Shown one piece after another: positions 1-17,806 of a stretch of 26,757 nucleotides of DNA. Source of the stretch: Perkinsus marinus ATCC 50983 (taxonomy: Eukaryota; Perkinsozoa; Perkinsida; Perkinsidae); NCBI RefSeq assembly GCF_000006405.1, contig NW_003206170.1:41405-68161 (forward strand). Reading direction: 5' to 3'. Under the pieces are notes generated by a model. The model ran no database searches. It was not told the origin of the DNA and saw only the letters and a list, made by a program, of their open reading frames with translations. The position numbers and the translations under genes are program-made. The number at the start of each line of letters is the position of its first letter. The stretch's first letter is position 1.

Positions 1-60
1 GGAATTCTAAGGATTTGTGTTCGATAATTAACTTGCGAACTTTCGAGAATTTCGTGTCTA

Positions 61-82
61 CTCATATCATATGAGTCATATA
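61..82. repeat. Probable old 14-bp inverted insertion, E = CTCATATR
   Basis: The three 6-bp arms (TCATAT, its reverse complement, TCATAT) fit, and the first spacer rule fails at one base. Present in all three copies, with separate point changes in copies 2 and 3. Confidence 0.65.
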
Positions 83-108
83 TATCTCCTGTGGCAGAGT
101 CACCATTG

Positions 109-140
109 GTTACTATTAGTAACCAATAGTAACTTACTAA
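109..140. repeat. Compound insertion at E = GTTACTAA (14 + 10 bp)
   Basis: Copies 1 and 2 have 24 bp more than copy 3, which keeps the plain 8-mer at 16625-16632. Removing the 10-bp block CAATAGTAAC leaves a perfect 14-bp event. This suggests one standard event followed by a 10-bp duplication that extended the first hairpin to 11 bp. Confidence 0.6.
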
Positions 141-167
141 GCAAGACTTGTTCTTCATCCCGGAAGA

Positions 168-189
168 CATCTGTAACAGATGATCTGTT
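168..189. repeat. 14-bp inverted insertion, E = CATCTGTT
   Basis: Perfect E(1-7)+rc(E)+E(2-8). The same expanded form is in copy 2 at 6439-6460. Copy 3 keeps the plain 8-mer at 16660-16667, so the net gain of 14 bp is directly visible. Confidence 0.95.
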
Positions 190-705
190 CATCGACTGGA
201 TATTGGTCGGGAGTGTGGGAGAGGGCCAAACACTGTGAAGCCGAAGTCCGATCACAGGATCTTGCGTTTGGCTCTGGGTTCACAGATTATGTTTGGTCAC
301 ACAAACTATGTCACGGAATATGGCTCATGTGTCCTGACATAGGTTAGCGTCTCCCAGCCAACTTCAGGCCAGAAACACGAAATAACAATATGATGAACCA
401 ACTTAAAGTATAGAATCATCTCGATCTCAATGAGCTACGGAGCGAACATCATGACTTAACCAGACACTAAGTAAGTTACCTGAGATTACGAGGTTAACAC
501 ACCTTTGACCCCCTGAAATCGTACACACTCGCTTGTACTTGCTTCTCAATGAAACATCCGGTTCGAATTACCGGCAGAGTATTTACCTGCTAGCGATGAT
601 GCTTACAAGCTGCCGATGTGCATTATGAGTCACAATTTATGACCGCCCTACTGTAGAGCGTCAAACGTTTGAACCTTACTGTGCGGAAGACTGAGTAGGC
701 GAAAG

Positions 706-741
706 CGTATAGAGTCTATACTATAGACTATACGGTATAGT
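706..741. repeat. Two nested 14-bp inverted insertions, E = CGTATAGT and GTATAGAC
   Basis: The inner event (E = GTATAGAC) is perfect at 707-728. Deleting its 14 bp restores a second perfect event with E = CGTATAGT. Both are shared by the corresponding part of copy 2 (about 6991-7026) and copy 3 (about 17186-17221, one point change). Confidence 0.9.
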
Positions 742-1090
742 CCCTCACATCTCTGGGAGCTCGAGAATTGGTGCTTTTCCATGTCACATGGTTTCCAAAT
801 GCTGTCGAGCCGCTGAAGGATAAACCCTCAGGGCTCCGTGACCACCAAGCTGATGGCAATATTGTAACAACTTTGTTGTTACGGCATCGGTGTGCACCAC
901 CATTCTCATAGCCCTCCCGGAAGGTTGCAGCTCACCATCCCGCATTAATGCGTCAATGTATGCCCGGAATGTTAGTCAGCGCTGTGGAATATTCGCCGTA
1001 CGTCCTGAGCGGCTCAGGTTGATCCACGAATGGCCAAAACTTGAGGGTATGGGATACTCGTTGAGTCGACTGCCAAGCGATCCGAATAGT

Positions 1091-1385
1091 CTCTTTGGCG
1101 AATAGGGGCGGGGCCGCTATGCCAGTCGACTGTACCATTCAGAATAGATCTATTTGGCGAATAGGGGCGGGGCCGCTATGCCAGTCCACTATACCATTCA
1201 GAATAGATCTATTTGGGAAAACGGGGCGGGGCCGCTATGCCAGTGGACTATACCATTCAGAATAGATCTATTTGGGGAAAAGGGGCGGGGCCGCTATGCC
1301 AGTGGACTATACCATTCAGAATAGATCTATTTGAGGAAAAGGGGCGGGGCCGCTATGCCAGTGGACTATACCATTCAGATTCTGA
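1091..1385. repeat. 59-bp GC-rich tandem repeat, 5 copies
   Basis: The word GGGGCGGGGCCGCTATGCCA recurs at 1105, 1164, 1223, 1282 and 1341, exactly 59 bp apart. The rest of each unit is an A/T-richer stretch including ATTCAGAA and AGATCTATTTG. The GGGGCGGGG core is identical to a GC box, but nothing here shows it acts as a promoter. Copy 2 of the long unit has one copy (near 11809) and copy 3 has four. The last unit carries a 14-bp inverted insertion (1373-1394). Confidence 0.95.
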
Positions 1386-1394
1386 ATTTCAGAA
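1373..1394. repeat. 14-bp inverted insertion, E = ATTCAGAA
   Basis: Perfect. It lies in the last 59-bp unit. The other units of the array keep the plain 8-mer, for example at 1137-1144. Also present in copy 2 at 11835-11856. Confidence 0.95.
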
Positions 1395-1453
1395 TCGATC
1401 TATTTGGGGAAGTGGTGGAGTAAACCAACACCGATAATGGGTGACCCATTACT

Positions 1454-1475
1454 GTCTCGTCACGAGACTCTCGTG
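1454..1475. repeat. 14-bp inverted insertion, E = GTCTCGTG
   Basis: Perfect in copy 1. Copy 2 keeps the plain 8-mer at 11916-11923. Confidence 0.95.
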
Positions 1476-1585
1476 TGGCACAGAGTTGTGCAGCACGCAA
1501 CTCAAGCTAGAGTTTCCACTACTAACGTGTGAAGTTTAGTCGACCTGAGCTGTTATTCTCTGAGGTTTTGGGCGTATCACGATGC

Positions 1586-1607
1586 GATATGTAACGTATC
1601 ATACGTT
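1586..1607. repeat. 14-bp inverted insertion, E = GATACGTT
   Basis: Present in copy 1 with one later point change in the first arm. Copy 2 keeps the plain 8-mer at 12034-12041. Confidence 0.9.
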
Positions 1608-1726
1608 GAGTATCATAACGCATGGTGTTTGGGTAGCCCCCGAGTGTTTGCAAGTCCTCGAGATACAACCTACATACTCGATTCGAGTGACGGATCACCA
1701 GTGATAGCGTGTACTAGAGCGTCGTA

Positions 1727-1748
1727 GTAAGATAATCTTACTAAGATG
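1727..1748. repeat. 14-bp inverted insertion, E = GTAAGATG
   Basis: In both copies (also 12161-12182). Each copy carries a different single mismatch, and together they restore the perfect form. Confidence 0.85.
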
Positions 1749-2529
1749 TAGGCAGTTCGTGATCAACACTTTTGATCTACACCCCGTTATCCTCGAGTTC
1801 CATATGAAGTTGAGAGAAGTTGCTCTTAATTGATGGTAAGTCTGGAAGGAATTCGCTGAACTCTGCTAAAAAGAAGTGGCGTTTAAACGAGCCGAACGAC
1901 AAAAATATGGGCGACAAGCCACACAACTTGGATGAATGAAGAACACAATAGCTGGGTGGGGCGACGATTCGCGCAATTCAAGCTAGTGAAGCTGTTGCGG
2001 GCAATACTCCGATCAAGTATATCGCTGGTGATATACATAGTTTTTTGCTAGAGTAAAGGAGCACTATGATATCACCTAGTGTGGTACTTATAGCGACTGA
2101 GCACTTACCGGCTGGGGATCCTCGTCAAATGACAAGCACTGCGATGAGGACCGACCCCCTCTACTCTTCAACCACTCTCTAACATCTGTCTTGAAGTAAC
2201 ACTAATCTAATACTCACTAATGGCGTGGTGTCGAGTTCCAAAGTCTGCAGCACTAAAAATTTTCCACTGAACGCTGCAAGGGAGTTTAAAACGAAACAGC
2301 GCAGCTTCCAAAAGAATTGGGTGCTACGTTGATAGACTGAGACGTTAAAGATATCTAAGCTCACTGCATCTTTCAGAAATCTGTGTTGCGAGTGAGGTGG
2401 CTCCACGTAGTCGGCAGGTAGCGAAACCACATTCTTGTATAAAGACATCGGTCCATGGTTCCATGCAGTTTTGAACCAGAAGTCATCAAAACTTTGGATG
2501 ATGAAGGTTTGAAATGTGCAATAACTGCA

Positions 2530-2551
2530 CAGTGTATTACACTGAGTGTAA
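2530..2551. repeat. 14-bp inverted insertion, E = CAGTGTAA
   Basis: Perfect, and also perfect in copy 2 at 12972-12993. No unexpanded copy in the window. Confidence 0.9.
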
Positions 2552-2904
2552 ATCTTCATCGTCTGCAACCTAAAATTGATGTCCTTCGGCGAATGTGATT
2601 CCCTTTGTCCGTAAAACTGGTCGCCATAACCGCGAAATAGATTGTTTCTGCGAACTCGTGATTACATGTGGCTCTATGTTGCAGCATGCAGTAGAATGGA
2701 AATAAAGCAAAGTATTGTGATCGAACGAGAAATGCTACCCGTCACGCTATACGTCACGTACGTGGTACGGTTCCACCAATACCTTTACGAATATGGCTCG
2801 AGATTCTTCATTACGACGACTCAGGCGTCGTTGCTACACTGATAACGTGAAGAGTGTGTAGTGTTGAAAACTTTCGAGCCGAGGAAGGTGATTTTACATT
2901 CGAG

Positions 2905-2926
2905 CATTTTCTGAAAATGATTTTCA
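2905..2926. repeat. 14-bp inverted insertion, E = CATTTTCA
   Basis: Perfect in copy 1. Copy 2 keeps the plain 8-mer at 13351-13358. Confidence 0.95.
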
Positions 2927-3327
2927 GATTCGCCAGCGTCTGTAGGCGAAGCTTCGCCCGTTTCCTCGAAAGAGGTCAAGACTGATGAAAACTCCTGATG
3001 AAAACTTCCTTCCGCCGGAGAGTTTACACACGAATTCGGGTAGGAGTGCATATCCCCCCACACTGGGTCTTCCGGTTTTCAAGTGTAAGACTGGAATCTC
3101 ATCTACACCGGTTAATGCAGGGTACCGTTACAAGGCGTTACGACTATTCGATTCTGGCAACACTATGTATGATCGGTTGAAGGACAGTTGATGGTGAGTT
3201 GAGGCTCATCCAAGTGTATATAGTGTACTAGTAGAGAGTATTCCACATAGAAGGGAACACTGCTACTGAGAGTTCGGGAGATTGTGATGCTGCAGAAGGC
3301 ACCGTCGGGGGGGCCGTTGCTAAAATG

Positions 3328-4418
3328 CTGAGGTGTTGAGAGTATATAATATCTTTTCTGACTGACTTTATAGAGTGTAATTTTTGACAACAAATTACCT
3401 GAATGCAGGATTTGCATCATCACATTTTGGGACAGAATCACATACAATGTGAAATCGGAGGACTTATGAGGAACTCAGGTGATGCACTGCATACGTGGAG
3501 ATGATTTTACGGATCATATTATCGAGAACTGTATGAGAAATATTCACTGAATATTTCACGTACGACTATAGTGAGATAAAATAGAATCATTAATAGTGTT
3601 CGCGTGGGCATTTGGAAATATCCGGGTACGGAAATTTTTCGAGTAGTCTGTTTTGGGAGTGAAAAAATTTTAGGAGAATATTATTTTTTTGTGATATTTC
3701 ATCGATTTTAGTCGGCGAAATGCACTACTCTATCTCAACTAGGAGTAGTGGTATCTCAAGTGGCAACCGCAAACCAAAAACGTAGTAGCAGTAGAACGGT
3801 ATATGTATGCCGAGTGGAAGCACTTTCGGCGCGCACCGATGTCCTCGCCATTTTTCACTGTCAAGATTCGTATATATATACTCGCTTGCTATGGGTGAAA
3901 CCGTTGTAGTGTAGTAGGACAACATGGTATGTAATAAGAAACTAAGATTATACTTTGCATTCACACACTTGCGGAATTGTGACCGATGGTGATCAGCACA
4001 CCGACATCCTGTCACCATTTTCGTTGCTCGCCAAAAACACCTTCTACTAGAATGTGTTACAGTTGAAGGCAATCTTCCCTAACGAGAGTACCCCTAAGCA
4101 GTCGTACCCTTATCGGGAGCACTGAGGTTGGGCCTCACTACTTTGGAGGGTCCATAGATCTCAACTGGTATATGGTCGTCTTCAACTGTCTTGAGTTGTG
4201 GTGGTACATCTCTTGTAGAGTATCACTACTGGAGCTATTCATATATCCCCATGATGTTATTATGTGGGGAGACTAGTTATTCGCTGAGCTTCATTATTTA
4301 ATCGCAGGTTGGGGTATTGCGATGATGGGGAGCGAATTTCTTTTACCTGGCTACGGAGTCTAGCGATACCGACAGAGATCGAGTGAATGCAAAGACTCCA
4401 AGTCTCGCTATACTCGGC
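3328..4418. other. Unit-1-specific segment, no gene recognised
   Basis: This 1.09-kb A/T-rich segment is in copy 1 only. At the same place copy 2 has the gag element and 175 bp of unrelated DNA (15274-15448). It holds a perfect 10-bp-stem hairpin (GAAATATTCA, C, TGAATATTTC near 3540) and an inverted CACTACTC/GAGTAGTG pair near 3725. A 115-codon minus-strand ORF (3725-4072) has no recognisable features. Confidence 0.6.
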
Positions 4419-4758
4419 TTCCTCCTCGATGGGTTATTAATAATCCTTTCATTACACGCCTGCCTCGTTCAAGTCCCCCCCCCTGGAATCAATTTGATAT
4501 AATCCGGGATTGAGATGCATTTCCCCACCACTACCCCATAGAACACGACATGCTTATCTGAGACCGTCCTGCCGCAATGGCTACGATACGATCGTAGAAA
4601 AATTATTGACTGAGAGCTAGCCGGAAAGACGAAACCGACTCAACGAATACTCATACCAATAGTATCAATAAAAAATGATATCGTTGTCAATACCAATAAC
4701 GAGATAATCTCAGCAACCACGTGTAGGTCCTTGATGGTAAACCGTAGAGCTCCAACGA

Positions 4759-4947
4759 TTAACTGGTGCAAACACATTCACACGCCGAATTCAGGTAGGT
4801 GGCTTGGCACTTGCAGCGAGAGAAATCACAACTCGGGCAAGAATCATCAAAACATTGATAGGGACCACCTAGTGAACGTAGAGACATGTCCTGGGCCTGG
4901 GGATTCAGGATGAGGCTGGTGATGACGGCCAAGAATAGGTAGACCAT
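4759..4947 (-). CDS. Small secreted cysteine-rich peptide, copy 1 (62 aa)
   Basis: A 62-residue single-exon ORF. Residues 1-18 form a typical signal peptide: a hydrophobic core YLFLAVITSLIL, then NPQA before a likely cleavage. The mature chain has eight Cys in 29 residues: C32-x4-C37-x2-C40-x4-C45-x-C47-x8-C56-x-C58-x-C60. A copy lies at 15785-15973 with every Cys kept. I do not recognise the family. The pattern would suit a disulfide-rich secreted peptide; the CxC and CxxC steps also allow a metal-binding role. An in-frame ATG nine codons upstream exists here but the other copy lacks it, so I chose the shared start. It is the only part of the repeat unit with evidence of selection for a protein. 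Confidence 0.7.
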   Translation of the reverse strand: MVYLFLAVITSLILNPQAQDMSLRSLGGPYQCFDDSCPSCDFSRCKCQATYLNSACECVCTS

Positions 4948-5018
4948 TATCGTAAAAAACCTGTAATTCACCAAGAGCTCCAGTAATTCTCTAAAATCTC
5001 TACTGCCTTACGAAGAAG

Positions 5019-5040
5019 ACCGATACTATCGGTCCGAGAG
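5019..5040. repeat. 14-bp inverted insertion, E = ACCGATAG
   Basis: One mismatch in the third arm. The same form is in copy 2 at 16038-16059. Confidence 0.8.
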
Positions 5041-5067
5041 TCCGTTCTTACAGATCGATCCTTTCGT

Positions 5068-5089
5068 GACGCCTCAGGCGTGACGCCTG
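5068..5089. repeat. 14-bp inverted insertion, E = GACGCCTG
   Basis: One mismatch at the second spacer base. Copy 2 keeps the plain 8-mer at 16087-16094. Confidence 0.85.
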
Positions 5090-5105
5090 TACATGTGACT
5101 CGCGT

Positions 5106-5127
5106 GACGTGTGACACGTCACGTGTC
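5106..5127. repeat. 14-bp inverted insertion, E = GACGTGTC
   Basis: Perfect in copy 1. The corresponding part of copy 2 is rearranged into a longer fold-back (16359-16389), so it gives no clean comparison. Confidence 0.85.
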
Positions 5128-5426
5128 CCACTAATGCCATCAGCGTGGCGGCGGGGCGCAAAGTGTCCATCTGTCTACTTCACGCCGAGAGGCTATGCAA
5201 GCCTGGAACGCACCGCGAAGAGCACACAATCTGCACGTGCATACGTACACATGCTTGCAAGATACGTGTTCGGCCATCCCACGGAACTTAACCTAACATT
5301 TCCTTGTTTCCATGCGGATCAGCAATGCACCACTGGCCTGATGCGCTTTGACGTTCTCTGCGGAGGCGTATATCCGACTACGTTTGATAGTCTACTTGTT
5401 GATTCGGCGCAGTGGGGCCGAGAAGT

Positions 5427-5448
5427 GGCCGAGTCTCGGCCGCCGAGA
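5427..5448. repeat. 14-bp inverted insertion, E = GGCCGAGA
   Basis: Perfect. The related segment inside the retrotransposon keeps an unexpanded form at 9013-9020, differing only in the last base of the 8-mer. Confidence 0.9.
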
Positions 5449-5479
5449 GATCGGCCATTCAAAGTATGACTTATACTGT

Positions 5480-5516
5480 ATGAACTGAGTTCATTGAACT
5501 CGGAGTTCAGAACTCC
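5480..5516. repeat. Two overlapping 14-bp inverted insertions, E = ATGAACTC and TGAACTCC
   Basis: Perfect events at 5480-5501 and 5495-5516. They are explained by a first event at TGAACTCC and a second at the overlapping word ATGAACTC in its product. Confidence 0.9.
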
Positions 5517-5789
5517 TATGGAGGACTAGCGCTTGTGCGCGACGAGAGTGGAAGTGTATACTTTCGCTATACTGGGGAACGTTAGTTGTCCACGGTAGGT
5601 AGTCTACGGCCCAGAGGGCCTGGAAGTTGGTCGAAAAAGGGAATCAACCATTCTAACCACCGTGAGACACTACGATATGACTAGCGCTTGCGTTCGAGGG
5701 TGGAAGTGGAAACTCTCACCTCGTTTACTTCTGATGGACGTTGTCCATCCCCAACGTTCTGTGTAGAGTCGCAAAAGCGAGTGTGTCCA

Positions 5790-6239
5790 AAAGTCCAGTC
5801 GGACCAGTAAGTGGCTGAGAAATCGGCCATTTGAAGTACTATGAGCAACTACAGTTTGCGAGGGTCCAGTGGGACCGGTAAGTGGCTGAGAAGTTGGCGA
5901 TTCCAAGTACTGCGAGCAACTGAGAGTTGCGTCGGTCCAGTGGGGCCAGGAAGTGGCTGAGGAATCGGCCACTCCAAGTACTGTAAGCAACTGAGTGTTG
6001 CGTGGGCCCAGTGAGGCCAAGAAGCGGCTGACAAATCGGCCATTCCAAGTACTGTGAGTAACTAGTTGTTACATCCGTGACTGATGATCAGTCCAGTTGG
6101 GCCAGAGGATGACCGAGAAATCAGCCATCTCTATTACTATGAGCCACTGCCCGCTGCCTCAGTCCATCGGGCCGCAATATGGCTGAGGTTTCAGCCGTCT
6201 CACTGTCTGTTGCACCTGCCCAACGGCGACGGGAGATGT
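5790..6239. repeat. Imperfect ~70-bp tandem repeat, about 6 units
   Basis: Each unit runs roughly as a CAGTSGGRCC start, then AGTGGCTGAG, an ATCGGCCATT-like block, AAGTACTG, and a short GCAACT...AGTTGC hairpin. Units begin near 5799, 5868, 5936, 6008, 6090 and 6160 and diverge toward the right. Older relatives of the same motif occur at 5405-5470 and inside the retrotransposon at 8990-9030. No coding signal. Confidence 0.8.
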
Positions 6240-6438
6240 CCGGAGTCGGCCATCTCGACTTCTATGAGGATGGAATTCTAAGGATTTGTGTTCGATAATT
6301 AACTTGCGAACTTTCGAGAATTTCGTGTCTACTCATATCATATAAGTCATATATATCTCCTGTGGCAGAGTCACCATTGGTTACTATTAGTAACCAATAG
6401 TAACTTACTAAGCAAGACTTGTTCTTCATCCCGGAAGA

Positions 6439-6460
6439 CATCTGTAACAGATGATCTGTT
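6439..6460. repeat. 14-bp inverted insertion, E = CATCTGTT (copy 2)
   Basis: Same expanded allele as 168-189. Confidence 0.95.
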
Positions 6461-6971
6461 CATCGACTGGATATTGGTCGGGAGTGTGGGAGAGGGCCAA
6501 ACACTGTGAAGCCGAAGTCCGATCACAGGATCTTGCGTTTGGCTCTGGGTTCACAGATTATGTTTGGTCACACAAACTATGTCACGGAATATGGCTCATG
6601 TGTCCTGACATAGGTTAGCGTCTCCCAGCCAACTTCAGGCAAGAAACACGAAATAACAATATGATGAACCAACTTAAAGTATAGAATCATCTCGATCTCA
6701 ATGAGCTACGGAGCGAACATCATGACTTAACCAGACACTAAGTAAGTTACCTGAGATTACGAGGTTAACACACCTTTGACCCCCTGAAATCGTACACACT
6801 CGCTTGTACTTGCTTCTCGATGAAACATCCAGTTCGAATTACCGGCAGAGTATTTACCTGCTAGCGACGATGCTTACAAGCTGCCGATGTGCATTATGAG
6901 TCACAATTTATGACCACCCAACTGTAGAGCGTCAAACGTTTGAACCTTACTGTGCGGAAGACTGAGTAGGC

Positions 6972-6993
6972 GAAAGCGACGCTTTCAAAGCGT
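6972..6993. repeat. 14-bp inverted insertion, E = GAAAGCGT
   Basis: Perfect and present only in copy 2. Copies 1 and 3 keep the plain 8-mer at 701-708 and 17181-17188. Confidence 0.95.
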
Positions 6994-7211
6994 ATAGAGT
7001 CTATACTATAGACTATACGGTATAGTCCCCCACATCTCTGGGAGCTCGAGAATTGGTGCTTTTCCATGTCACATGGTTTCCAAATGATGTCGAGCCGCTG
7101 AAGGATAAACCCTCAGGGCTCCGTGACCACCAAGCTGATGGCAATATTGTAACAACTTTGTTGTTACGGCATCGGTGTGCACCACCATTCTCATAGCTCT
7201 CCCGGAAGGTT

Positions 7212-7386
7212 TGTCGTGAGTATTGATGAACCAAATCCGTTGGAAATAAGTGGAATCTAATCTTATAACACCTCTTATATCATCAGCGACTAGCGCAGCT
7301 TGTGCTATTAGCTAAATATATGAATGGAAGTGAAATAACACAAAATGAGGATACGAATCTAGAAGATCTTAGCTGAGATCACCACA
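7212..7386 (-). repeat. 3' LTR of the minus-strand retrotransposon
   Basis: Pair of 11445-11619. The pol stop codon TGA lies eight bases inside it (7379-7381). Confidence 0.95.
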
Positions 7387-8125
7387 CCTCCCCCAGTTGA
7401 TTATCAACTATCGTCCTCATTGGCAGCAACGATATTTGAAATATCATATTTCTCACATGCTCACGAACAATGTTAGCATTGGGATCATCGTCACGCTGTA
7501 AATCAACACTACGATTGTAAACCTTCACAACCTTGTAGCGTACACGGTCGTTGACAGCAGGGTTGCAGCGACGAACATAGTTTCCAACTTGGAAAGACTT
7601 CAGTTGGCCACGACCTTTAGTGTCCTCCAGAGACATATTCTTGGCGACAACCAAGTCATTAACGGCTGCAACCTTACGACCAAGAATGCTAGAGTAGGGA
7701 CGTTGGAAGAAAGTCTCAAAAGCCGTCAAGCCATTGTCCAAAGGCACCAAGTTAACACATTTGTTGACATAGGCCAAATGAACAGACCACTCGCGCTTCT
7801 CAGCACGACTCATAGTAGCAAACTTAGCCTTTACTGAGCCAATGCATCGTTCGGCTTTACCATTCGACAATGGAGAATGTCGAGGAACTCCTATCCAAGT
7901 CACACCTTGACCAGCAAGTAGGGACCGGAAAATACGAGAAATAAAACCACTACCATTGTCATTCTTGAAAAAGCGACACCAACCGATACGTTCACAAACG
8001 CCGGCTACAGCCCTACAAAGCTCACGAGCTTCTAGAGTCTTCAGCGGGACCAGCCAAGAGAAGCTGGAAAGGGCATCAACCATTACAAGGAAGTATCTAA
8101 AGCCGAAGCGATCCTTGATCAACAT
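7379..8125 (-). CDS. Integrase core (DD35E), N-terminal zinc domain missing
   Basis: A 248-codon open frame carrying the catalytic triad D17 (LVMVDALSS), D56 (FKNDNGSGF) and E92 (NGKAERC), with exactly 35 residues between the last two. This is the rve/DDE integrase core. The C-terminal third includes a basic chromodomain-less tail ending QLGEVW, whose last codons are the polypurine tract and the first LTR bases. The upstream HHCC domain and RNase H are not found. Only about 40 residues separate the RT remnant from the core, so an internal deletion is likely. A shorter in-frame extension VDIAD lies just upstream of the ATG. Confidence 0.9.
   Translation of the reverse strand: MLIKDRFGFRYFLVMVDALSSFSWLVPLKTLEARELCRAVAGVCERIGWCRFFKNDNGSGFISRIFRSLLAGQGVTWIGVPRHSPLSNGKAERCIGSVKAKFATMSRAEKREWSVHLAYVNKCVNLVPLDNGLTAFETFFQRPYSSILGRKVAAVNDLVVAKNMSLEDTKGRGQLKSFQVGNYVRRCNPAVNDRVRYKVVKVYNRSVDLQRDDDPNANIVREHVRNMIFQISLLPMRTIVDNQLGEVW
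7387..7395 (-). promoter_or_regulatory. Putative polypurine tract
   Basis: The minus strand reads TGGGGGAGG immediately before the 3' LTR. It also encodes the last residues of integrase. Confidence 0.7.
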
Positions 8126-9431: not shown

Positions 9432-10045
9432 ATAAAACCAACCATCGTCCTCAGGGTCGATGGTTCTACCAGTTGGTCTTTGGGGATAATATCATCGTCA
9501 GTCAAACCCATACGAGCCAGTAGAGGTGATTGTAGCGAGTCATCAGACTCTTCTACAGAGCAGACGATGTCACTACGATAAGCATCAATCAAAAGACCCA
9601 GAGCCGCAATACCTTCCCAACCAATAACCACACGAGGAGACAACGAAGGCACCACATGGAATAATAGCATTCGTTGGGAACCACCATAACGGACAAGGAT
9701 CTTCACACTACCATCCGACTCTACCTTCGAACCATCAGCTAGAGACACTGAGTGATGGTTAGCTTTTTCAAGTTGGTAGAAATGACCAACCTCATTGAAG
9801 GAGAGTAATAGAGCTGATGATATATAGTTAAATGTAGCCCCCGTATCAAAAAGGGCAGCCTCAGAAACTTCATCTTTAGATTTCTGAGGAGAAGAAAGTC
9901 CAACTTGTCTCACGGCTGGACATAGAGTCTCGCCCATAGACGCAGTAGTAGTTACAGTGTCGTTAGACTTAGCGATCAAAGCGGCTGCTTTAGAGACGAC
10001 AGTACCAGTACCAGTAGCAGTAGGTTGACTTGGCGTTTTTCTCGA
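9428..10045 (-). CDS. Retroviral-type aspartic protease domain
   Basis: The frame carries LFDTGATFNYIS, the active-site DTGA motif of retropepsins, then a flap-like region and a VVIGWEGIAALGL segment resembling the conserved second hydrophobic-Gly motif. It has no nearby ATG and overlaps the end of gag in the -1 frame, so it would be made as Gag-Pro. The upper limit given is the open frame, not a defined start. It ends at TGA 9428-9430. The RT-proximal part continues in the next -1 frame with sensible protein, which points to a one-base indel rather than a true stop. Confidence 0.85.
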   Translation of the reverse strand, partial: SRKTPSQPTATGTGTVVSKAAALIAKSNDTVTTTASMGETLCPAVRQVGLSSPQKSKDEVSEAALFDTGATFNYISSALLLSFNEVGHFYQLEKANHHSVSLADGSKVESDGSVKILVRYGGSQRMLLFHVVPSLSPRVVIGWEGIAALGLLIDAYRSDIVCSVEESDDSLQSPLLARMGLTDDDIIPKDQLVEPSTLRTMVGFI

Positions 10046-11445
10046 CCACGTCGGCTTATCACTCTCAACTGGTAGGGCTTAGCCAGCTTAGGGCAATCAG
10101 CTATCAAATGACCATGTTCACGACAATAACGGCAAGTCTTCGAACCTTCAACATCAGTATTACCACCATTTGACAGAGTAGATGATGTGGAGCGACTAGT
10201 GGTAATAGCAGAAGTAGAGACTGTCGGCAAAGTTAGCGGGCTTGTAACTGAATCAGGAGGTGATACCACATTCCCTGATCGTCTAAAAACGCGTTCTTCC
10301 GAAACCAAGCGCGAAACTAGATCGTCAAGAGAACTGACACCAGTTCCAATAAGAGTGGCTGCACTGAAGGCCCACTTAGAATTAACAGCAGTCGCAAATT
10401 GCAACGCAGATTGAGAGTCATCGATAGTATTACCCAAACATCTGGCCTCCTCCTGAGCATTCTCGAACGTTTGAGCGAAAGAAGAGAGCTTTTCAGTCTG
10501 ACCTTGACGAAGCTGAAGCAGGGAATGCCATGCTTCCAGTTTGCCAGAATCACCCCGACCATAAGAAACGAGAAGGTTACCGATCTCACGATGAAGTTCA
10601 GGAACCAAACCTTCGTGATTCACAACAACTACAGGGTGAACCACTTTTCTAGCCTCGCGACTAATCTGGCGTTTGAGCATCTCACGATACTCAAGAGCAG
10701 ACCAACACTCTTCTATAGCAGTATCACGGAGGAAAACCAATACTCTACGAATAGAGCGTAAATCGGCCTTGCCCGCAAATTTACCTCCTTGAAGGAGCTC
10801 AACATTAGCAACAGTCTTCCGAGCATACCGGCGATCCTGGGAGGTTATAGGACCTTCTTTACCTGGAAACGTCGGTAATAAATCACTTGTACTCAATGTA
10901 CTACCAATGCTCGTCTCAGACGAGTTTTCGGACTCAACAGATTGAAGAGGTGGTTGGCTCGCAGTAGTAGAATGCTGACGAGTCGGTTGAGATTGACAGT
11001 AATAAGAGGGAAACCTTCGAGGAAAAGTAGGCTCAAAGATACTCAGCTGGTCGAAGTTCAGGAACTTGAGCGCAGATATTTTCTTAGCTCTCAGATCCCT
11101 GTTGCCAGCGTTATCAAAAGAACTTTCCAAACCGAGCTCGTCGATCAAATGTGGCCAAACATAATCAAAGAAGCTTTCAAGAAGGGTCTCACTCGGCTTT
11201 GAAGAGAGCATAGTCTCCAGAAAATACTCCGAGGAACGCCAAATAAAATCACCAGCATCAGCAGCAGTGACTGTCTTGTCTTCTTTCAGAACACCACCAA
11301 CAATCGCAGCGAACTCCGTTGCAACTCCACTCAACTTGAGTGGTTTACTCGAGCAAAGTAGCTCGATATTACTTAACACGAGATTATCAATCTCACACAA
11401 AGGCAGATCACTGGTACTTGAAATGGATGTCGCCCGAGGTGCCAT
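9976..11445 (-). CDS. Gag polyprotein (489 aa) with one CCHC zinc knuckle
   Basis: An open 489-codon frame starting at the LTR edge: A from the LTR, TG from the primer-binding site. The N-terminal two thirds are the expected capsid region, without a motif I can name. A Ser/Thr-rich stretch precedes a zinc knuckle CRYCREHGHLIADC (C-x2-C-x4-H-x4-C) near residue 437. A short basic segment, then a Leu-rich end, precedes TGA. Gag would form the particle and bind the RNA genome. Protease follows in the -1 frame with a long overlap, so -1 frameshifting is likely. A run of five A lies at about 10036-10040 in the overlap, but it is not a canonical slippery heptamer. Confidence 0.9.
   Translation of the reverse strand: MAPRATSISSTSDLPLCEIDNLVLSNIELLCSSKPLKLSGVATEFAAIVGGVLKEDKTVTAADAGDFIWRSSEYFLETMLSSKPSETLLESFFDYVWPHLIDELGLESSFDNAGNRDLRAKKISALKFLNFDQLSIFEPTFPRRFPSYYCQSQPTRQHSTTASQPPLQSVESENSSETSIGSTLSTSDLLPTFPGKEGPITSQDRRYARKTVANVELLQGGKFAGKADLRSIRRVLVFLRDTAIEECWSALEYREMLKRQISREARKVVHPVVVVNHEGLVPELHREIGNLLVSYGRGDSGKLEAWHSLLQLRQGQTEKLSSFAQTFENAQEEARCLGNTIDDSQSALQFATAVNSKWAFSAATLIGTGVSSLDDLVSRLVSEERVFRRSGNVVSPPDSVTSPLTLPTVSTSAITTSRSTSSTLSNGGNTDVEGSKTCRYCREHGHLIADCPKLAKPYQLRVISRRGREKRQVNLLLLVLVLSSLKQPL
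11431..11444 (-). promoter_or_regulatory. Putative primer-binding site
   Basis: Directly after the 5' LTR the minus strand reads TGGCACCTCGGGCG. It begins with TGG, as expected for pairing with the CCA end of a tRNA. There is no spacer, and the site doubles as gag codons 1-5. The priming tRNA cannot be named from here. Confidence 0.65.
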
Positions 11446-11619
11446 GTCGTGAGTATTGATGAACCAAACCCGTTGGAAATAAGTGGAATCTAATCTTATA
11501 ACACCTCTTATATCATCAGCGACTAGCGCAGCTTGTGCTATTAGCTAAAGATATGAATGGAAGTGAAATAACACAAAATGAGGATACGAACCTAGAAGAT
11601 CTTAGCTGAGATCACCACA
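11445..11619 (-). repeat. 5' LTR of the minus-strand retrotransposon
   Basis: Pair of 7212-7386. On the minus strand it starts TGTGG and ends GACA. Three substitutions separate the pair. The last LTR base supplies the A of the gag ATG. Confidence 0.95.
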
Positions 11620-11799
11620 AGGTTGCAGCTCACCATCCCGCATTAATGCGTCAATGTATGCCCGGAATGTTAGTCAGCGCTGTGGAATATTCGCCGTACG
11701 TCCTGAGCGGCTCAGGTTGATCCACGAATGGCCAAAACTTGAGGGTATGGGATACTCGTTGAGTCGACTGCCAAGCGATCCGAATAGTCTCTTTGGCGA

Positions 11800-11870
11800 A
11801 TAGGGGCGGGGCCGCTATGCCAGTGGACTATACCATTCAGATTCTGAATTTCAGAATCGATCTATTTGGG
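11800..11870. repeat. 59-bp repeat reduced to a single unit
   Basis: In copy 2 only one 59-bp unit remains. Its left part matches the first unit of copy 1 (CGAATAGGGG context). Its right part matches the last unit (GTGGACTATA plus the inverted insertion at 11835-11856). This is what unequal recombination between the first and last units would leave. Confidence 0.85.
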
Positions 11871-13870
11871 GAAGTGGTGGAGTAAACCAACACCGATAAT
11901 GGGTGACCCATTACTGTCTCGTGTGGCACAGAGTTGTGCAGCACGCAACTCAAGCTAGAGTTTCCACTACTAAAGTGTGAAGTTTAGTCGACCTGAGCTG
12001 TTATTCTCTGAGGTTTTGGGGGTATCACGATGCGATACGTTGAGTATCATAACGCATGGTGTTTGGGTAGCACCCGAGTGTTTGCAAGTCCTCGAGATAC
12101 AACCTACATACTCGATTCGAGTGACGGATCACCAGTGATAGCGTGTACTAGAGCGTCGTAGTTAGATCATCTTACTAAGATGTAGGCAGTTCGTGATCAA
12201 CACTTTTGATCTACACCCCGTTATCCTCGAGTTCCATATGAAGTTGAGAGAAGTTGCTCTTAATTGATGGTAAGTCTGGAAGGAATTCGTTGAACTCTGC
12301 TAAAAAGAAGTGGCGTTTAAACGAGCCAAGCGGCCAAAATATGGGCGACAAGCCACACAACCTGGATGAATGAAGAACACAATAGCTGGGTGGGGCGATG
12401 ATTCGCGCAATTCAAGCTAGTGAAGCTGTTGCGGGCAATACTCCGATCAAGTATATCGATGGTGATATACATAGTTTTTTGCTAGAGTAAAGGAGCACTA
12501 TGATATCACCTAGTGTGGTACTTATAGCGACTGAGCACTTACCGGCTGGGGATCCTCGTTAACTGACAAGCACTGCGATGAGGACCGACCCCCTCTACTC
12601 TTCAACCACTCTCTAACATCTGTCTTGAAGTAAGACTAATCTAATACTCACTAATGGCGTTGTGTCAAGTTCCAAAGTCTGCAGCACTAGAAATTTTCCA
12701 CTGAACGCTGCAAGGGAGTTTAAAACGAAACAGCGCAGCTTCCAAAAGAATTGGGTGCTAATTGATAGACTCAGACGTTAAAGATATCTAAGCTCACTGC
12801 ATCTTTCAGAAATCTGTGTTGCGAGTGAGGTGGCTTCACGTAGGCCACCAAGTCGGCAGGTAGCGAAATCACATCCTTGTATAAAGACATCGGTCCATGG
12901 TGCCATGCAGTTTTGAACCAGAAGTCATCAAAACTTTGGATGATGGAGGTTCGAAATGTGCAATAACTGCACAGTGTATTACACTGAGTGTAAATCTTCA
13001 TCGTCTGCAACCTAAAATTGATGTCCTTCGGCGAATGTGATTCCCTTTCTCCGTAAAACTGGCCGCCATAACCGCGAAATAGATTGTTTCTGTCTGCGAA
13101 CTCGTGATTACATGTGGCTCTATGTTGCAGCTTGCAGTAGAATGGATATAAGGCAAAGTATTGTGATCGAACGAGAAATGCTACCCGTCACGCTATACGT
13201 CACGTACGTGGTACGGTTCCACCAATACCTTTACGAATATGGCTCGAGATTCTTCATTACGACGACTCAGGCGTCTTTGCTACACTGATAACGTGAAGAG
13301 TGTGTAGTGTTGAAAACTTTCGAGCCGAGGAAGGTGAATTTACATTCGAGCATTTTCAGATTCGCCAGCGTCTGTAGGCGAAGCTTCGCCCGTTTCCTCG
13401 AAAGAGGTCAAGACTGATGAAAACTCCTGATGTAAACTTCCTTCCGCCGGAAAGTTTACACACGAATTCGGGTAGGAGTGCATATCCCCCCACACTGGGT
13501 CTTCCTGTAAGACTGGAATCTCATCTACACCGGTTCATGCAGGGTACCGTTACAAGGCGTTACGACTATTCGATTCTGGCAACACTATGTATGATCGGTT
13601 GAAGGACAGTTGATGGTGAGTTGAGGTTCATCCAAGTGTATAAAGTGTACTAGTAAAGAGTGTTCCACATAGAAGGGAACACTGCTACTGAAAGTTCGGG
13701 AGATTGTGATGCTGCAGGAGGCACCGTCGGGGGGCCGTTGCTAAAATGTGTAGTTGTGCAGACTGCACAACTATGGAATCTTAGCTTAGCTCGAAGCTAG
13801 TTGATGAGTTTATGAGGCTAATTGTAGATAGAATCACTAGATTCCATTAACCATTGCCTTGAGTTCCCAA

Positions 13871-15229
13871 ATGGTTAACATGGTGGAGAACCCGTTGACA
13901 ACTTCCCCAAGTCCTGTTGGTTTACAAATTGCTGGAGCTTTTGGTGTAGAGAACGTTTATCTCTTAAGACATGTTACTGATGAAGAGTTTACCAAGAAGT
14001 GTGAGGAGATGCTTACCGATAAGAAAGCGACCTTTGGTGATATATTGGCTTGGCGTGATTATATGGAGGGTATTAGAAATACCCGTTCACAAATGTGTGA
14101 ATCATCTTCAGCGTCTCGTAGATCTGGCGCATCAACTTCTAGTGAGCCAGAGGTTATTACGTCAAGGATTGTAAACACTGTTTCTAAGTTACCGCTACCT
14201 AATGGTGAAGCTTATAATGGTTTTCAAGATAAGAGGAGTATCAGCTGGTTTGTTAAGGAGATTCAGAATACTAGTAAGCTTTTTCAGTTATCATGTCGTG
14301 CTGAATGGCTGTTTCTTACTAGTGCTTGTAAGCCGTTGGTGAGATCTGCTATGCTTGACCAAGTTGAGCGTGACTGTGGTGATGATGTTTGGATGCATGA
14401 TTATGATCAGATGTTGGGTACTGCTGAAGATTATCTAACAACCAAGTATCGTCGCTCAGACGACCCTAGTCGTTATGAGTCTCGTAGTATTAATGTCCGC
14501 CAACGTAGTGATGAAAGTGTGTATGCTTATCTTGACCGACTAACTGAGTTGGTTTCTCAGGGTCAAAATTGTGGCTTGAAGCTTTCACCAGAACAAGTTT
14601 GTAATGCTTTTAGACGTGGTTTACTTGGTAAGCTACGAAAAACTGCTAATGTACAGTTTTCAACGGTTACCCAAGCATCCACTCTAGCAAGTGAGTTGAC
14701 TAGATTCAGTGAGTTGAATCCTTGGGTGTTAGACTCTACAAATGTAGATAGAGTGAGTTCATCTCAGACATCTACTATGGTCAACAACATTTCGAACAAC
14801 GTCAATGGTATGAATGATCGTTCTTCAAAGAGTAATATTTCTGATTCCGAGTTCAACTTTTTACGAACAAATCGGTATTGTATTGCATTTGCGAAGACAG
14901 GTGGGTGCCCGAGAACGAATTGTCGTTTTACTCATTCTTCTTTGAAGGATGTTCGTACGAAAATGACTTCTCAGGATAAGTCTTCGGATGCTAATAGAAG
15001 TCCTACTGCTGCTACTATCATCACTGGTTCGATTCCATCAACTTCAACAACTAAGGGTAGTACTGATTTCAAGCAGATTACTTCTACTGCCAAGTACTGT
15101 TCTGATGATGGTTCAAAAAATAGTACACTCAGGGTTCCCCAGTTGTCCAAATTCTTTGTTGAAGTCGACACTGGTTGCTCGAGTAGTATTATTACGTTAG
15201 GTATAGAATGTGGCACCACAATGTGGTGA
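13871..15229 (+). CDS. Gag-like protein with CCCH finger and start of a protease (452 aa)
   Basis: The first ATG after an open TTG is used, giving 452 residues. The central part (about residues 110-300) resembles a retrotransposon capsid: PLPNGEAYNGF, then helical segments including SVYAYLDRLTELV and AFRRGLLGKLR. Near residue 336 a C-x7-C-x4/5-C-x3-H finger (CIAFAKTGGCPRTNCRFTH) replaces the usual CCHC knuckle. A protease active-site start FVEVDTGCSSSIIT follows near residue 433, so the ORF once continued into pro-pol. It stops at TGA 15227-15229 inside a 14-bp inverted insertion that shifts the frame. It is distinct from the minus-strand gag and recognised by architecture only. Confidence 0.8.
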   Translation: MVNMVENPLTTSPSPVGLQIAGAFGVENVYLLRHVTDEEFTKKCEEMLTDKKATFGDILAWRDYMEGIRNTRSQMCESSSASRRSGASTSSEPEVITSRIVNTVSKLPLPNGEAYNGFQDKRSISWFVKEIQNTSKLFQLSCRAEWLFLTSACKPLVRSAMLDQVERDCGDDVWMHDYDQMLGTAEDYLTTKYRRSDDPSRYESRSINVRQRSDESVYAYLDRLTELVSQGQNCGLKLSPEQVCNAFRRGLLGKLRKTANVQFSTVTQASTLASELTRFSELNPWVLDSTNVDRVSSSQTSTMVNNISNNVNGMNDRSSKSNISDSEFNFLRTNRYCIAFAKTGGCPRTNCRFTHSSLKDVRTKMTSQDKSSDANRSPTAATIITGSIPSTSTTKGSTDFKQITSTAKYCSDDGSKNSTLRVPQLSKFFVEVDTGCSSSIITLGIECGTTMW

Positions 15230-15235
15230 CGACAT
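15214..15235. repeat. 14-bp inverted insertion in a retroelement ORF, E = CACCACAT
   Basis: One mismatch in the third arm; both spacer rules hold. It shifts the gag-protease frame and supplies the TGA stop. Confidence 0.75.
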
Positions 15236-15784
15236 CGACAGTGGCCTCTGCATAGTGCCTCACAGCAAAAATGTAATAATCAATTGCCGCCTATGATCAT
15301 ATGCAAGACGTAGAATATGAGCTCTCACTAGTAGTAAGCTGCTGTCATACCCTCGTGTAGAGCTGTTGAAAAACGAGTGAGATGACCGGATGCGATTTGG
15401 CCGGCTGGTGAGTCGACTCGTTGTAGTTCATTGTGATCATCTCCTGGCCTTCCTCCTCGATGGGTTATTAATGATCCTTTCATTACACGCCTGCCTCGTT
15501 CAAGTCCCCCCTGGAATCAATTTGATATAATCCGGGATTGAGATGCATTTCCCCACCACTACCCCATAGAACACGACATGCTTATCTGAGACCGTCCTGC
15601 CGCAATGGCTACGATACGATCGTAGAAAAATTATTGACTGAGAGCTAGCCGGGAAGACTAAACTTTCAACGAATACTCATACCAATAGTATTCATGATAA
15701 ATGTTATCGATGTCCATACCAGTCACGAGATAATCTCAGCAACCACGTATAGGTCCTTGATGATAAACCGTAGAGCTCCAACGA

Positions 15785-15973
15785 TTACCTAGTGCAATCA
15801 CATTCACAGTCCGAATGCAGGTAGGGGCCTTGGCACTTGCAGCGAGAGAGATCACAACTCGGGCAAGCATAATCATAACATTCATAGGGACCGTACAGTG
15901 AACGTAGAGACATGTCCTGGGCCTGGGGATTCAGGATGAGGCTAATGATGACGGCCAAGAATAGGTAGACCAT
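15785..15973 (-). CDS. Small secreted cysteine-rich peptide, copy 2 (62 aa)
   Basis: Paralogue of the ORF at 4759-4947 in the next repeat unit, same length and no indels. Signal peptides differ at one residue (T10I). Twelve further replacements lie in residues 27-62: G27Y, Q31E, F33Y, D35Y, S36A, F42L, A49G, T50P, N53H, A55D, V59D and S62R. All eight Cys codons are unchanged. Only two codons (26 and 61) differ silently. Changes that nearly all alter the amino acid yet spare every Cys are hard to explain for a non-coding stretch and suggest diversifying selection on a secreted peptide. Function unknown; no toxin or defence family is recognised. Confidence 0.7.
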   Translation of the reverse strand: MVYLFLAVIISLILNPQAQDMSLRSLYGPYECYDYACPSCDLSRCKCQGPYLHSDCECDCTR

Positions 15974-16103
15974 TATCGTAAATAACCTGTCGAGGGTACA
16001 AGTAATTCTCTAAAGACTCTACTGCCTTACGAAGAAGACCGATACTATCGGTCCGAGAGTCTGTTCTTACAGATCGATCCTTTGTTGACGCCTGTACATG
16101 TGA

Positions 16104-16390
16104 CTCGCGCCGCGCAAAAATATGACACAGCCGCGCGCGCCCCGCTTACCCCCATCCAATGTTGGCTCTAGACACAAGTATTGAGTGCTCGGCTCTAGGA
16201 GTCCCGACATTGGAGAGGGGGTGAGGGTATTGACAATTCATCATAGTCATGTTTTCTCTCTGCGCGTTGACTCATTTTTGCGTTTGCATGCATTTGCAGT
16301 GTGGGAGACAGCCTTGGGACGTCACGTCGCACCACTCATGATAATTCGTGTGTTCAATAATTAGTGGGACACGTCACGTGTCCCACTAAT
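16104..16390. other. Insertion-like segment with inverted repeats in copy 2
   Basis: Copy 1 reads directly from ACTCGCG into the block CACGTGTCCCACTAATGCC. Copy 2 has about 260 extra bp here. The extra DNA contains CGCAAAAAT near 16116 and its reverse complement near 16274, an imperfect 15-bp inverted pair around CCAATGT/ACATTGG, and ends in a perfect 31-bp fold-back at 16359-16389 (15-bp stems, 1-base loop). No ORF of note. It might be a small inverted-repeat element, but no clear target duplication is seen. Confidence 0.5.
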
Positions 16391-16485
16391 GCCATCAGTG
16401 TTGTGGGTCCAGTTTGCCTGCACCCTTGTAATCTCATCAAACCTTCGCCTTCCTCAGTATAGCGAATGAGCCCAATACCGGACTC

Positions 16486-17806
16486 CGGAGTCGGCCATCT
16501 CGACTTCGATGAGGATGGAATCCTCAGGATTTGTGTTCGATAATCAACTTGCGAACTTTCGAGAATTTCGTGTCTACTCATATCGTATGAGTCATATATA
16601 TCTCCTGTGGCAGAGTCACCATTGGTTACTAAACAAGACTTGTTCCTCATACCGAAAGACATCTGTTCATCGACTGGATATTGGTCGGGAGTGTGGGAGA
16701 GGGCCAAACACTGTGAAGCCGAAGTCCGATCACAGGATCTTGCGTTTGGCTCTGGGCTCACAGATTATGTTTGGTCACACAAACTATGTCACGGAATATG
16801 GCTCATGTGTCCTGACATAGGTTAGCGTCTCCCAGCCAACTTCAGGCAAGAAACACGAAATAACAATATGATGAACCAACTTAAAGTATAGAATCATCTC
16901 GATCTCAATGAGCTACGGAGCGAACATCATGACTTAACCAGACACTAAGTAAGTTACCTGAGATTACGAGGTTAACACACCTTTGACCCCCTGAAATCGT
17001 ACACACTCGCTTGTACTTGCTTCTCGATGAAACATCCAGTTCGAATTACCGGCAGAGTATTTACCTGCTAGCGACGATGCTTACAAGCTGCCGATGTGCA
17101 TTATGAGTCACAATTTACTCGACAGCCCTACTGTAGAGCGTCAAACGTTTGAACCTTACTGTGCGGAGGACTGAGTAGGCGAAAGCGTATAGAGTCTATA
17201 CTATAGACTATACGTTATAGTCCCTCACATCTTTGGGAGCTCGAGAATTGGTGCTTTTCCATGTCACATGGTTTCCAAATGCTGTCGAGCCGCTGGAGGA
17301 TAAACCCTCAGGGCTCCGTGACCACCAAGCTGATGGCAATGTTGTAACAACTTTGTTGTTACGGCATCGGTGTGCACCACCATTCTCATAGCTCTCCCGG
17401 AAGGTTGCAGCTCACCATCCCGCATTAATGCGTCAATGTATGCCCGGAATGTTAGTCAGCGCTGTGGAATATTCGCCGTACGTCCTGAGCGGCTCAGGTT
17501 GATCCACGAATGGCCAAAACTTGAGGGTATGGGATACTCGTTGAGTCGACTGCCAAGCGATCCGAATAGTCTCTTTGGCGAATAGGGGCGGGGCCGCTAT
17601 GCCAATCGACTATACCATTCAGAATAGATCTATTTGGCGAATAGGGGCGGGGCCGCTATGCCAGTCCACTATACCATTCAGAATAGATCTATTTGGCGAA
17701 TAGGGACGGGGCCGCTATGCCAGTCGACTATACCATTCAGAATAGATCTATTTGGGGAATAGGGGGCCGCTATACCAGTCCACTATACCATTCAGAATAG
17801 ATCTAC
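16486..17806. repeat. Long tandem repeat unit, copy 3, truncated
   Basis: Collinear with 6240-7211 plus 11620-11850, and with 1-1380. It lacks three hairpin insertions found in other copies, so it shows the unexpanded state at 16625-16632, 16660-16667 and 17181-17188. Homology ends inside a damaged fourth copy of the 59-bp repeat at about 17806, where single-copy gene-bearing DNA begins. Confidence 0.9.
17571..17806. repeat. 59-bp GC-rich tandem repeat, 4 copies, last one damaged
   Basis: The GC-rich core starts at 17585, 17644 and 17703 (the last as GGGACGGGG), with a shortened fourth unit near 17761. The homology of the whole 6-kb unit array ends in this fourth unit. Confidence 0.9.

Follow-up and report, generated by a model that had tools for sequence, protein, structure and literature searches.

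In Perkinsus marinus ATCC 50983 a 22-base form recurs that follows one exact rule: an 8-base word E is found as E(1-7)+rc(E)+E(2-8), i.e. 14 bp longer than the plain word. An exact scan of the 26,757-base stretch analysed here (the window) gave 17 perfect sites at word length n=8, and the form is also present elsewhere in the genome. Each 22-mer is probably the healed site of an excised hAT transposon; on this view it is the scar that such an element left behind rather than an independent insertion of 14 bp. An earlier note, made from the letters of this DNA alone, had recognised the fixed geometry, the 14-bp gain and the work of an enzyme, all of which stand; it lacked a source for the number 8, which the hAT target duplication would supply.

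The rule and its word length

The 17 perfect sites start at 168, 707, 1373, 1454, 2530, 2905, 5106, 5427, 5480, 5495, 6439, 6972, 6992, 7431, 11835, 12972 and 17187; five of them are paralogous copies of others in this series. All 17 lie within positions 1-17806 and none in the gene-rich remainder. When an inner 22-mer is collapsed to its E the 17 raw sites become 19 events. The earlier observation is confirmed, and the pattern extends beyond the window. Eleven of the twelve sites then called perfect come directly from the exact scan, and the twelfth, the outer event at 706, appears after the collapse. Over the whole window there was no perfect site at n=6, 7 or 9 to 15. Four were present at n=5 (two of them within n=8 sites) and ten at n=4.

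The rule fixes 14 positions, and simple arithmetic gives about 0.0001 sites expected by chance in 26,757 bases, the figure already quoted in the note. A second-order Markov control (3 x 249,306 bases) yielded 0.0 rule sites against 53 seen in the genome sequence analysed, a count that includes paralogous copies (46 distinct 22-mers). We also examined a sample of twenty further 10-kb stretches of the P. marinus genome (167,663 readable bases): the count of perfect sites there is 11 at n=8 and zero at n=6, 7 and 9-14. The note had named a lack of excess over n=7 or 9 as evidence against its rule; the sample gives 11 against 0 and 0. For short words, arithmetic predicts about 2.6 perfect sites in the sample at n=5, where four were counted, and about 41 at n=4, where 52 were counted. 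In the other loci there is one perfect n=7 case (in L041) against 40 at n=8, many of the 40 being copies.

Sites at n=8 with 0, 1, 2 and 3 mismatches number 11, 11, 20 and 29, where 0.0, 0.03, 0.51 and 6.1 are expected at equal base frequencies; it follows from the excess at one to three mismatches that many cases have decayed. The exact scan, the Markov control and this mismatch spectrum rule out a chance origin of the 22-mers. Imperfect sites of neighbouring lengths are in surplus too: 23, 106 and 662 at n=7 with 2, 3 and 4 mismatches (5.9, 59 and 401 expected), 4 and 16 at n=9 with 3 and 4 mismatches (0.6 and 5.8 expected), 1 and 6 at n=10 with 2 and 4 mismatches (0.0 and 0.6 expected). Overlap with n=8 scars and with odd palindromes may explain this surplus.

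Scarred and plain copies

The perfect scar at 168-189 (E=CATCTGTT) has a copy at 6439-6460, and plain E stands at window position 16660 and in loci L003 and L004. A nested pair occupies 706-741, the outer scar (E=CGTATAGT) enclosing an inner one at 707-728 (E=GTATAGAC) that is also present at 6992-7013 and 17187-17208; in L005 (contig C119) the outer scar is present with one base changed, and the inner one is missing. Further perfect scars lie at 1373-1394 (E=ATTCAGAA; copy at 11835-11856, plain E in the adjoining 59-bp tandem units), 1454-1475 (E=GTCTCGTG; plain E at 11916, 0 differences in 36 bases), 2530-2551 (E=CAGTGTAA; copy at 12972-12993), 2905-2926 (E=CATTTTCA; plain E at 13351 and in L066, C150:36090-36800), 5427-5448 (E=GGCCGAGA; plain E with 2-5 differences in 36 bases in L004, L005 and at window 9013) and 6972-6993 (E=GAAAGCGT; plain E at 701 and 17181). 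Two successive scars share 5480-5516 (E=ATGAACTC at 5480-5501, E=TGAACTCC at 5495-5516), and the perfect scar at 7431-7452 (E=GATATTTC), absent from the earlier note, is within an LTR retrotransposon. Scars with one mismatch were found at 1586-1607 (E=GATACGTT; plain E at 12034), 5068-5089 (E=CACGCCTG; plain E at 16087) and 6072-6093 (E=CATCAGTC; plain E in L005, 4 differences in 36 bases).

At the perfect scar 5106-5127 (E=GACGTGTC) the third copy of the unit has a different product at the same base: an odd palindrome (16360-16390) with 15-bp arms, whose one-base centre C is complementary to e1 of the 5106 scar site. We read it as a one-sided long hairpin product from the same break point. 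Another odd palindrome, with 11-bp arms and a one-base centre, occupies 13751-13773, where the homology of copy 2 to copy 1 ends (3327/13748).

Plain-E paralogs were found for ten window sites. Eight are those for which the plain 8-mer had been reported before (168, 1373, 1454, 1586, 2905, 5068, 5427 and 6972), all recovered with 0 to 5 differences in 36 bases; the other two are 707 and 6072, whose plain copies both lie in L005. For 2530, 5106, 5480, 5495 and 7431 no plain copy was found in the genome sequence compared. The plain paralogs bear out a gain of precisely 14 bp. Among indels of at least 3 bases between window copies this length is also the most frequent (6 of 17 entries, 2 being copies of one event; alignments of 150 columns or more). 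A further entry, of 13 bp, is site 5068. Indels of 24 bp (116/6387), 10 bp (3074), 9 bp (12842) and 7 bp (4965) between window copies fall outside the rule and are unexplained.

Plain paralogs exist also in two unrelated repeat families (L042, L010). Alignment breaks there were considered as filled sites and rejected: at L042:1189 all three paralogs fetched have plain alleles (more are listed), as do all eight fetched at L010:5991 (more are listed), with E one base different. Breaks at 183 in L006-L008 proved to be a divergent plain site. A gap near 2905 in C150 is a different insertion about 15 bp off, TA-flanked and read as mariner-like, and this copy is plain at the scar. Three genome searches were made with the 6.27-kb unit of the window, the L010 repeat and L042 (best 40 of 154, 39 of 69 and 39 of 39 candidates scored; tables read by eye), and no hAT-filled copy of a scarred repeat was seen among the matches listed, the candidate lists being incomplete because that of the L010 repeat omitted the query's own place.

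hAT elements and the proposed excision route

hAT elements move by cut-and-paste, duplicate 8 bp on insertion and leave hairpins on the flanks on excision. The genome has 14 matches over the cut-off to the C-terminal hAT dimerisation domain (PF05699), and some of these matches lie in open frames 725-850 aa long. In family 1, three copies 4,339-4,341 bases long are almost the same: they show no difference in the 2.4 kb and the ends that were aligned, and a perfect 8-bp duplication flanks all three. A frame inside the 4.3-kb element matches PF05699 with E=8.6e-7; the frames in the sequence examined are split or partial. At least 17 right ends of this family are present, and flanks were fetched for 13 of these. 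The ten copies beyond the first three gave seven perfect 8-bp duplications, two with none and one with N on one side, i.e. 10 of 12 testable copies in the whole family. Its terminal inverted repeat is 5 bp only (CATAC...GTATG). Family 2, whose element also encodes a hAT domain, ends in inverted repeats of 11 bp; its one testable copy is flanked by the 8-bp duplication GTGTTGAA, the other copy (L032) being cut by the contig end.

Two family 1 insertions have unoccupied paralogs carrying the 8-mer once: 24 for a tRNA-like site (23 with the same 8-mer, 1 with a base changed) and three for a LINE-like site (each with a changed base). No scar was seen in these paralogs (0 of 24 and 0 of 3, exact flank matches only), and the searches with the scarred repeats and with the paralogs of the two occupied sites showed no site both hAT-occupied and scarred.

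We infer that a hAT element once stood at each scarred site, and likewise the nicking, hairpin, opening and annealing events set out here and the identity of the nuclease. The element would have inserted with duplication of its 8-bp target E. On excision the transposase would nick one base outside each element end, as Hermes transposase does. The same offset is implied by the centring of Ac/Ds footprints in passages of PMC5873905. The free 3' end of the flank would then attack the opposite strand and close hairpins on the flanking DNA, of the kind described for hAT excision in parts of PMC4763223, with strands e1..e7-e8'-e7'.. on the left and ..e2'-e1-e2..e8 on the right. A host nuclease would open these hairpins and leave rc(E) and E as 3' overhangs. 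Their complementarity would span the 8 duplicated bases and no more; they could anneal, and trimming of the flaps would give the join E(1-7)+rc(E)+E(2-8), net +14 bp. In this scheme the target duplication would set the length 8 and the hAT cleavage offset would set the one-base turns, so no further sequence rule would be needed.

The earlier note saw no consensus in E, and here it is corrected. T at position 2 or A at position 7 fills 95 of 236 positions, against a local background of 0.256 (one-sided p 6e-7, the strongest of 16 tests), and 14 of 20 positions in the ten intact hAT duplications. Scar E also favours G1 and C3, for which the intact duplications have no preference and a weak one respectively. 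The T2/A7 preference fits the hAT target bias, Hermes targets being given as 8-bp nTnnnnAn in PMC10368747.

Hairpin geometry was analysed through palindromes. Provided E is the duplication, the palindrome centres of the 22-mer are e8' and e1', the complements of the bases beside the element. Away from scars there are 33 distinct palindromes with arms of at least 8 around a single central base, against 5-9 for each other gap from 0 to 12; this count leaves out palindromes made of only one or two letters and any that overlap a site departing from the rule at up to 3 positions. Left and right P-nucleotide combinations with a total of 8 were counted 53 times against 0.0 in the control. Short P-nucleotide forms exceed the control by only a few counts or by about a factor of two. 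Classes (0,1) and (1,0) stand at 31 and 26 against 16.7 and 14.7. The class without P nucleotides reaches 674 against 65.7. After removal of simple repeats and copies, however, the counts at spacings 7 and 8 (71 and 64) are like those at 5, 6, 10 and 11 (68-74); this surplus is therefore not a footprint class, and plain 7- or 8-bp duplications do not exceed those at other spacings. Thus the mixed set of short footprints expected of hAT excision was not seen in the scans of P-nucleotide combinations and plain duplications, and with so few short forms and no excess of plain duplications the host would need an unusually uniform healing of hairpins. An Artemis/Pso2-type domain match is present in the genome. 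Loss of classical end joining as the cause of this uniformity is unsupported, since two Ku-domain matches lie some 200 bases from each other; one of them exceeds the cut-off and contains stop codons, which a gene with introns is expected to show.

Other origins, known systems and scale

Near hAT matches the density of perfect scars (20 in 36,730 bases) exceeds that of the sample (11 in 167,663 bases). This does not single out hAT, because the density is higher again in the repeat-rich part of the window (17 in 17,806 bases). The frequency in the stretches examined suggests thousands of scars genome-wide; extrapolation gives 3,600 perfect ones. Family 1 copies are few beside this number (at least 17 right ends), which counts against the hAT-scar reading.

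A domesticated or hAT-derived enzyme, as Kat1 of Kluyveromyces, might instead cut plain 8-bp sites, form two hairpins without any element and heal them to the 22-mer. The very uniform product would suit such an enzyme, as would the lack of an element at scarred sites (among the matches listed), the lack of scars in paralogs of the two occupied sites, and the thousands of extrapolated scars against few copies of the one family counted (at least 17). But if E is not duplicated, a single copy of it must supply both overhangs, rc(E) as well as E, ordinary hAT cleavage requires the element's ends, and intact hAT elements with 8-bp duplications exist; we consider this origin unlikely. The scars might also stem from another cut-and-paste superfamily that duplicates 8 bp, e.g. 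Merlin or P, since duplication length alone does not single out hAT. One-base-offset flank hairpins are nevertheless of the hAT/V(D)J type and are not known for P elements, and the T2/A7 bias fits hAT, which makes this source improbable. In its favour, Merlin was reported from Alveolata (PMC8101967).

Template switching in replication or repair at short palindromes, with no transposon, seems very improbable. Two strand switches can describe the product, nesting of events is observed and n=7 sites with 2-4 mismatches are above expectation, but it offers no reason to stop at 8, where the sample has 11 sites against 0 at n=6, 7 and 9-14 and the other loci 40, many of them copies, against one perfect n=7. 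The earlier argument that a fixed 8/14 geometry calls for an enzyme and not for random template switching stands. An assembly or sequencing artefact is hardly credible: the analysis does rest on assembled sequence, but the same scars are common to diverged copies (707, 6992, 17187) and decay is gradual (11, 11, 20 and 29 sites at 0, 1, 2 and 3 mismatches).

The kind of mechanism proposed for hAT excision is already known; its uniformity and scale are unusual. In V(D)J coding joints, flank hairpins are opened by an Artemis-type nuclease and leave P nucleotides; hairpins and P nucleotides are thus alike, but there is no target duplication to anneal and the junctions are diverse. Parts of PMC4763223 tie Hermes to RAG1/2 and describe Kat1, a domesticated hAT transposase, which likewise makes hairpin-capped breaks on host DNA, but at a single programmed locus repaired by gene conversion. 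Ac/Ds footprints in plants, S. cerevisiae and C. albicans, as described in PMC5873905 (citing Yu 2004, Huefner 2011 and Lazarow 2012), are also close to the scars: the centre of their P-nucleotide palindromes is the complement of the base that adjoins the transposon end, the arms reach 20 nt in yeast, and microhomology helps the joining, most footprints in yeast and Arabidopsis showing putative microhomology. These footprints are however heterogeneous (28 kinds in 128 in C. albicans) and often delete bases, whereas in P. marinus one product, attributed here to annealing over the whole 8-bp duplication, stands out and recurs on many of the contigs examined. Amoebophrya introner elements, in the passages concerned of PMC7789003, also spread inverted and direct repeats through an alveolate genome, but they are whole inserted introns and the P. 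marinus scars are rearranged target bases only. We recognised no description of this 22-bp form, or of such scars in Perkinsus, among the titles listed in searches of open-licence literature.

Most recognisable scars look as if healed in the same exact way. It is a tentative and rather doubtful extension that this lineage heals hAT excision by one dedicated route, with hairpins opened far from the tip and annealed via the target duplication, so that most excisions leave a +14-bp barcode, possibly programmed by a host-tamed hAT enzyme, and the genome is a countable archive of well over ten thousand excisions. Excisions in old genomes are usually hard to count, as empty sites resemble point changes or small deletions. 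Under a strict rule a scar is recognisable from one genome, the original 8-bp target is recoverable and mismatches give a rough age; the target bias, rate and chromosomal spread of past hAT activity could then be determined even where no living element remains. It also becomes testable why hairpin breaks are healed in one way by this host but not by yeasts and plants. The scars are also frameshifting 14-bp insertions and thus a source of mutation. In the gene-rich part of the window a scar-like site with one mismatch (E=AGTTGAGA) lies at 23640-23661, probably in an intron as judged by eye.

The 22-mer rule in the window and elsewhere in the genome

The earlier note had described a recurrent 22-mer, E(1-7)+rc(E)+E(2-8), in which a plain 8-bp word E gains 14 bp. 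The observation is real and strong: an exact scan of the window for E(1..n-1)+rc(E)+E(2..n) at word lengths n = 6–15 gave sites at n = 8 alone, 17 of them, and ten distinct window sites have paralogs with plain E. The outer event proposed at 706 is indeed revealed when the inner 22-mer is collapsed. On another contig, C119 (locus L005), the outer form is present, with one base changed, without the inner 22-mer, which fixes the order of the two events.

The copies of the 6.27-kb unit (1–6271, 6272–7211, 11619–13748 and 15449–17805; 90–97% identical in long alignments) are scar-rich and apparently non-coding, and further, more diverged pieces of the unit occur on contigs C119, C288 and others. 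The second copy harbors an LTR retrotransposon (7212–11619; 175-bp LTRs at 7212–7386 and 11445–11619, 98% identical), itself containing one perfect scar (7431). DNA specific to this second copy carries an open frame (13859–15229), Gag-like, with a PF03732 match below the cut-off. Other gains also occur: 24 bp are extra relative to copy 3 at 116–139 and 6387–6410, palindromic yet outside the 8/14 rule, and the 9-bp gain AGGCCACCA (12842–12850), a near-inverted copy of the upstream GGTGGCTT, is another templated insertion in inverted orientation, its form unlike that of the 22-mers. Positions 23553–26757 hold a row of small genes, similar to one another and with short introns, that by eye resemble Alba genes.

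The assembly comprises 54.5 Mb in 347 contigs. Our sample of it (twenty spaced 10-kb stretches, two of them all N; three contigs; 167,663 readable bases) contained 11 perfect sites in the range n = 6–14, all of them at n = 8. With 0, 1, 2 and 3 mismatches, 11, 11, 20 and 29 sites were found at n = 8; equal base frequencies would give 0.0, 0.03, 0.51 and 6.1. The decay is graded, as would be expected if the process had operated for a long time. A rough extrapolation from this small, non-random sample, which includes a duplicated unit, gives about 3,600 perfect sites in the genome and more than 13,000 within two mismatches. Two repeat families with no relation to the window each have a scarred copy that shows the 14-bp gain relative to the paralogs fetched (3/3 and 8/8). 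The sole perfect n = 7 site seen (GCAGTAC) is at position 376 of locus L041. At locus L025 a perfect scar (2122) lies close to the centre (near 2159) of a large inverted repeat, whose arms span about 1 kb or more and have matching 24-mers all along.

hAT elements and the eight-base word

hAT transposons generate an 8-bp target duplication, which would account for the word length of the scars. The genome contains 14 PF05699 matches above the cut-off; the closest proteins to one hAT frame come from Perkinsus olseni, with up to 48% identity across the full query, and judged by this one protein the organism is probably a perkinsid. Three near-identical copies of a first element family (4,339–4,341 bases, identical where compared) each lie between two copies of one 8-mer: ATTCTGAG, TTCCCAAG and AAGCAGAA, respectively. 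Among ten further copies checked at both ends, seven have a perfect 8-bp duplication, two have none and one is untestable. Empty paralogs of two sites carry the 8-mer once: 24 at the first (23 identical to the duplication) and three at the second (all differing by one base). A second element with the hAT domain is bordered by GTGTTGAA at either end.

Over 118 distinct E, the strongest departure from the local background is T2/A7 (95/236, 0.40 versus 0.256, p 6e-7). The ten intact hAT duplications of this genome also lean this way (14/20), and the preference given for Hermes in PMC10368747 is nTnnnnAn. G1 and C3 are likewise raised in scars; this excess may come from other hAT families.

Three repeat searches gave, among the matches listed, no element in one copy with a scar in another, and two occupied-site searches gave no site both element-filled and scarred. 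The proposed link between elements and scars therefore comes from geometry, target bias and the shared genome, not from a caught event. Most likely the mechanism is of a known kind, hAT excision followed by hairpin repair, in an unusually uniform and widespread form.

On contig C282 a tRNA-like sequence (by eye) recurs in tandem every 373 bases, and one of the units holds a first-family hAT element. L024:1309–4456 may be one more element; its inverted ends are imperfect and the 8-bp repeat TATCGTCT flanks it. In locus L066 a small element (about 36202–36306 of contig C150) has inverted repeats CCAGTCGTCT and TA on its flanks and is mariner-like by eye.

One-base turns and the main product

The two palindromes within the 22-mer have e8' and e1' as their centres, and these are complementary to the bases next to which the element would have lain. 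The same centring is reported for Ac/Ds footprints in PMC5873905, where it is ascribed to hairpins. Palindromes were also counted in 249,306 bases after removal of any that overlapped a site with three or fewer mismatches to the rule, so that the excess is independent of the 22-mers. With arms of at least 8 there were 33 distinct single-base-centre palindromes versus 5–9 at each of the other gap sizes in the range 0–12, and with arms of at least 10 there were 16 versus 0–3. One of these odd palindromes (16360–16390, third unit copy) lies exactly at the base that bears scar 5106 in copy 1, as if the same break had been healed another way; on the left side about 250 bp of other DNA have taken the place of the unit.

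Blunt joining of P nucleotides should produce left and right lengths in many different pairings. A P-nucleotide total of 8 was counted 53 times versus 0.0 in the control, the other P-nucleotide classes exceeding the control by no more than a few counts or roughly a factor of two, and plain 7- or 8-bp duplications showed no excess versus other spacings. Annealing of two overhangs across the target duplication would give mostly one product, and no exact nick position would be required because longer tails would be flaps, trimmed off; we infer that such a step causes the single main product. Candidate host factors in the genome are a DRMBL (Artemis/Pso2-type) match and two matches to the Ku domain, of which one is above the cut-off.
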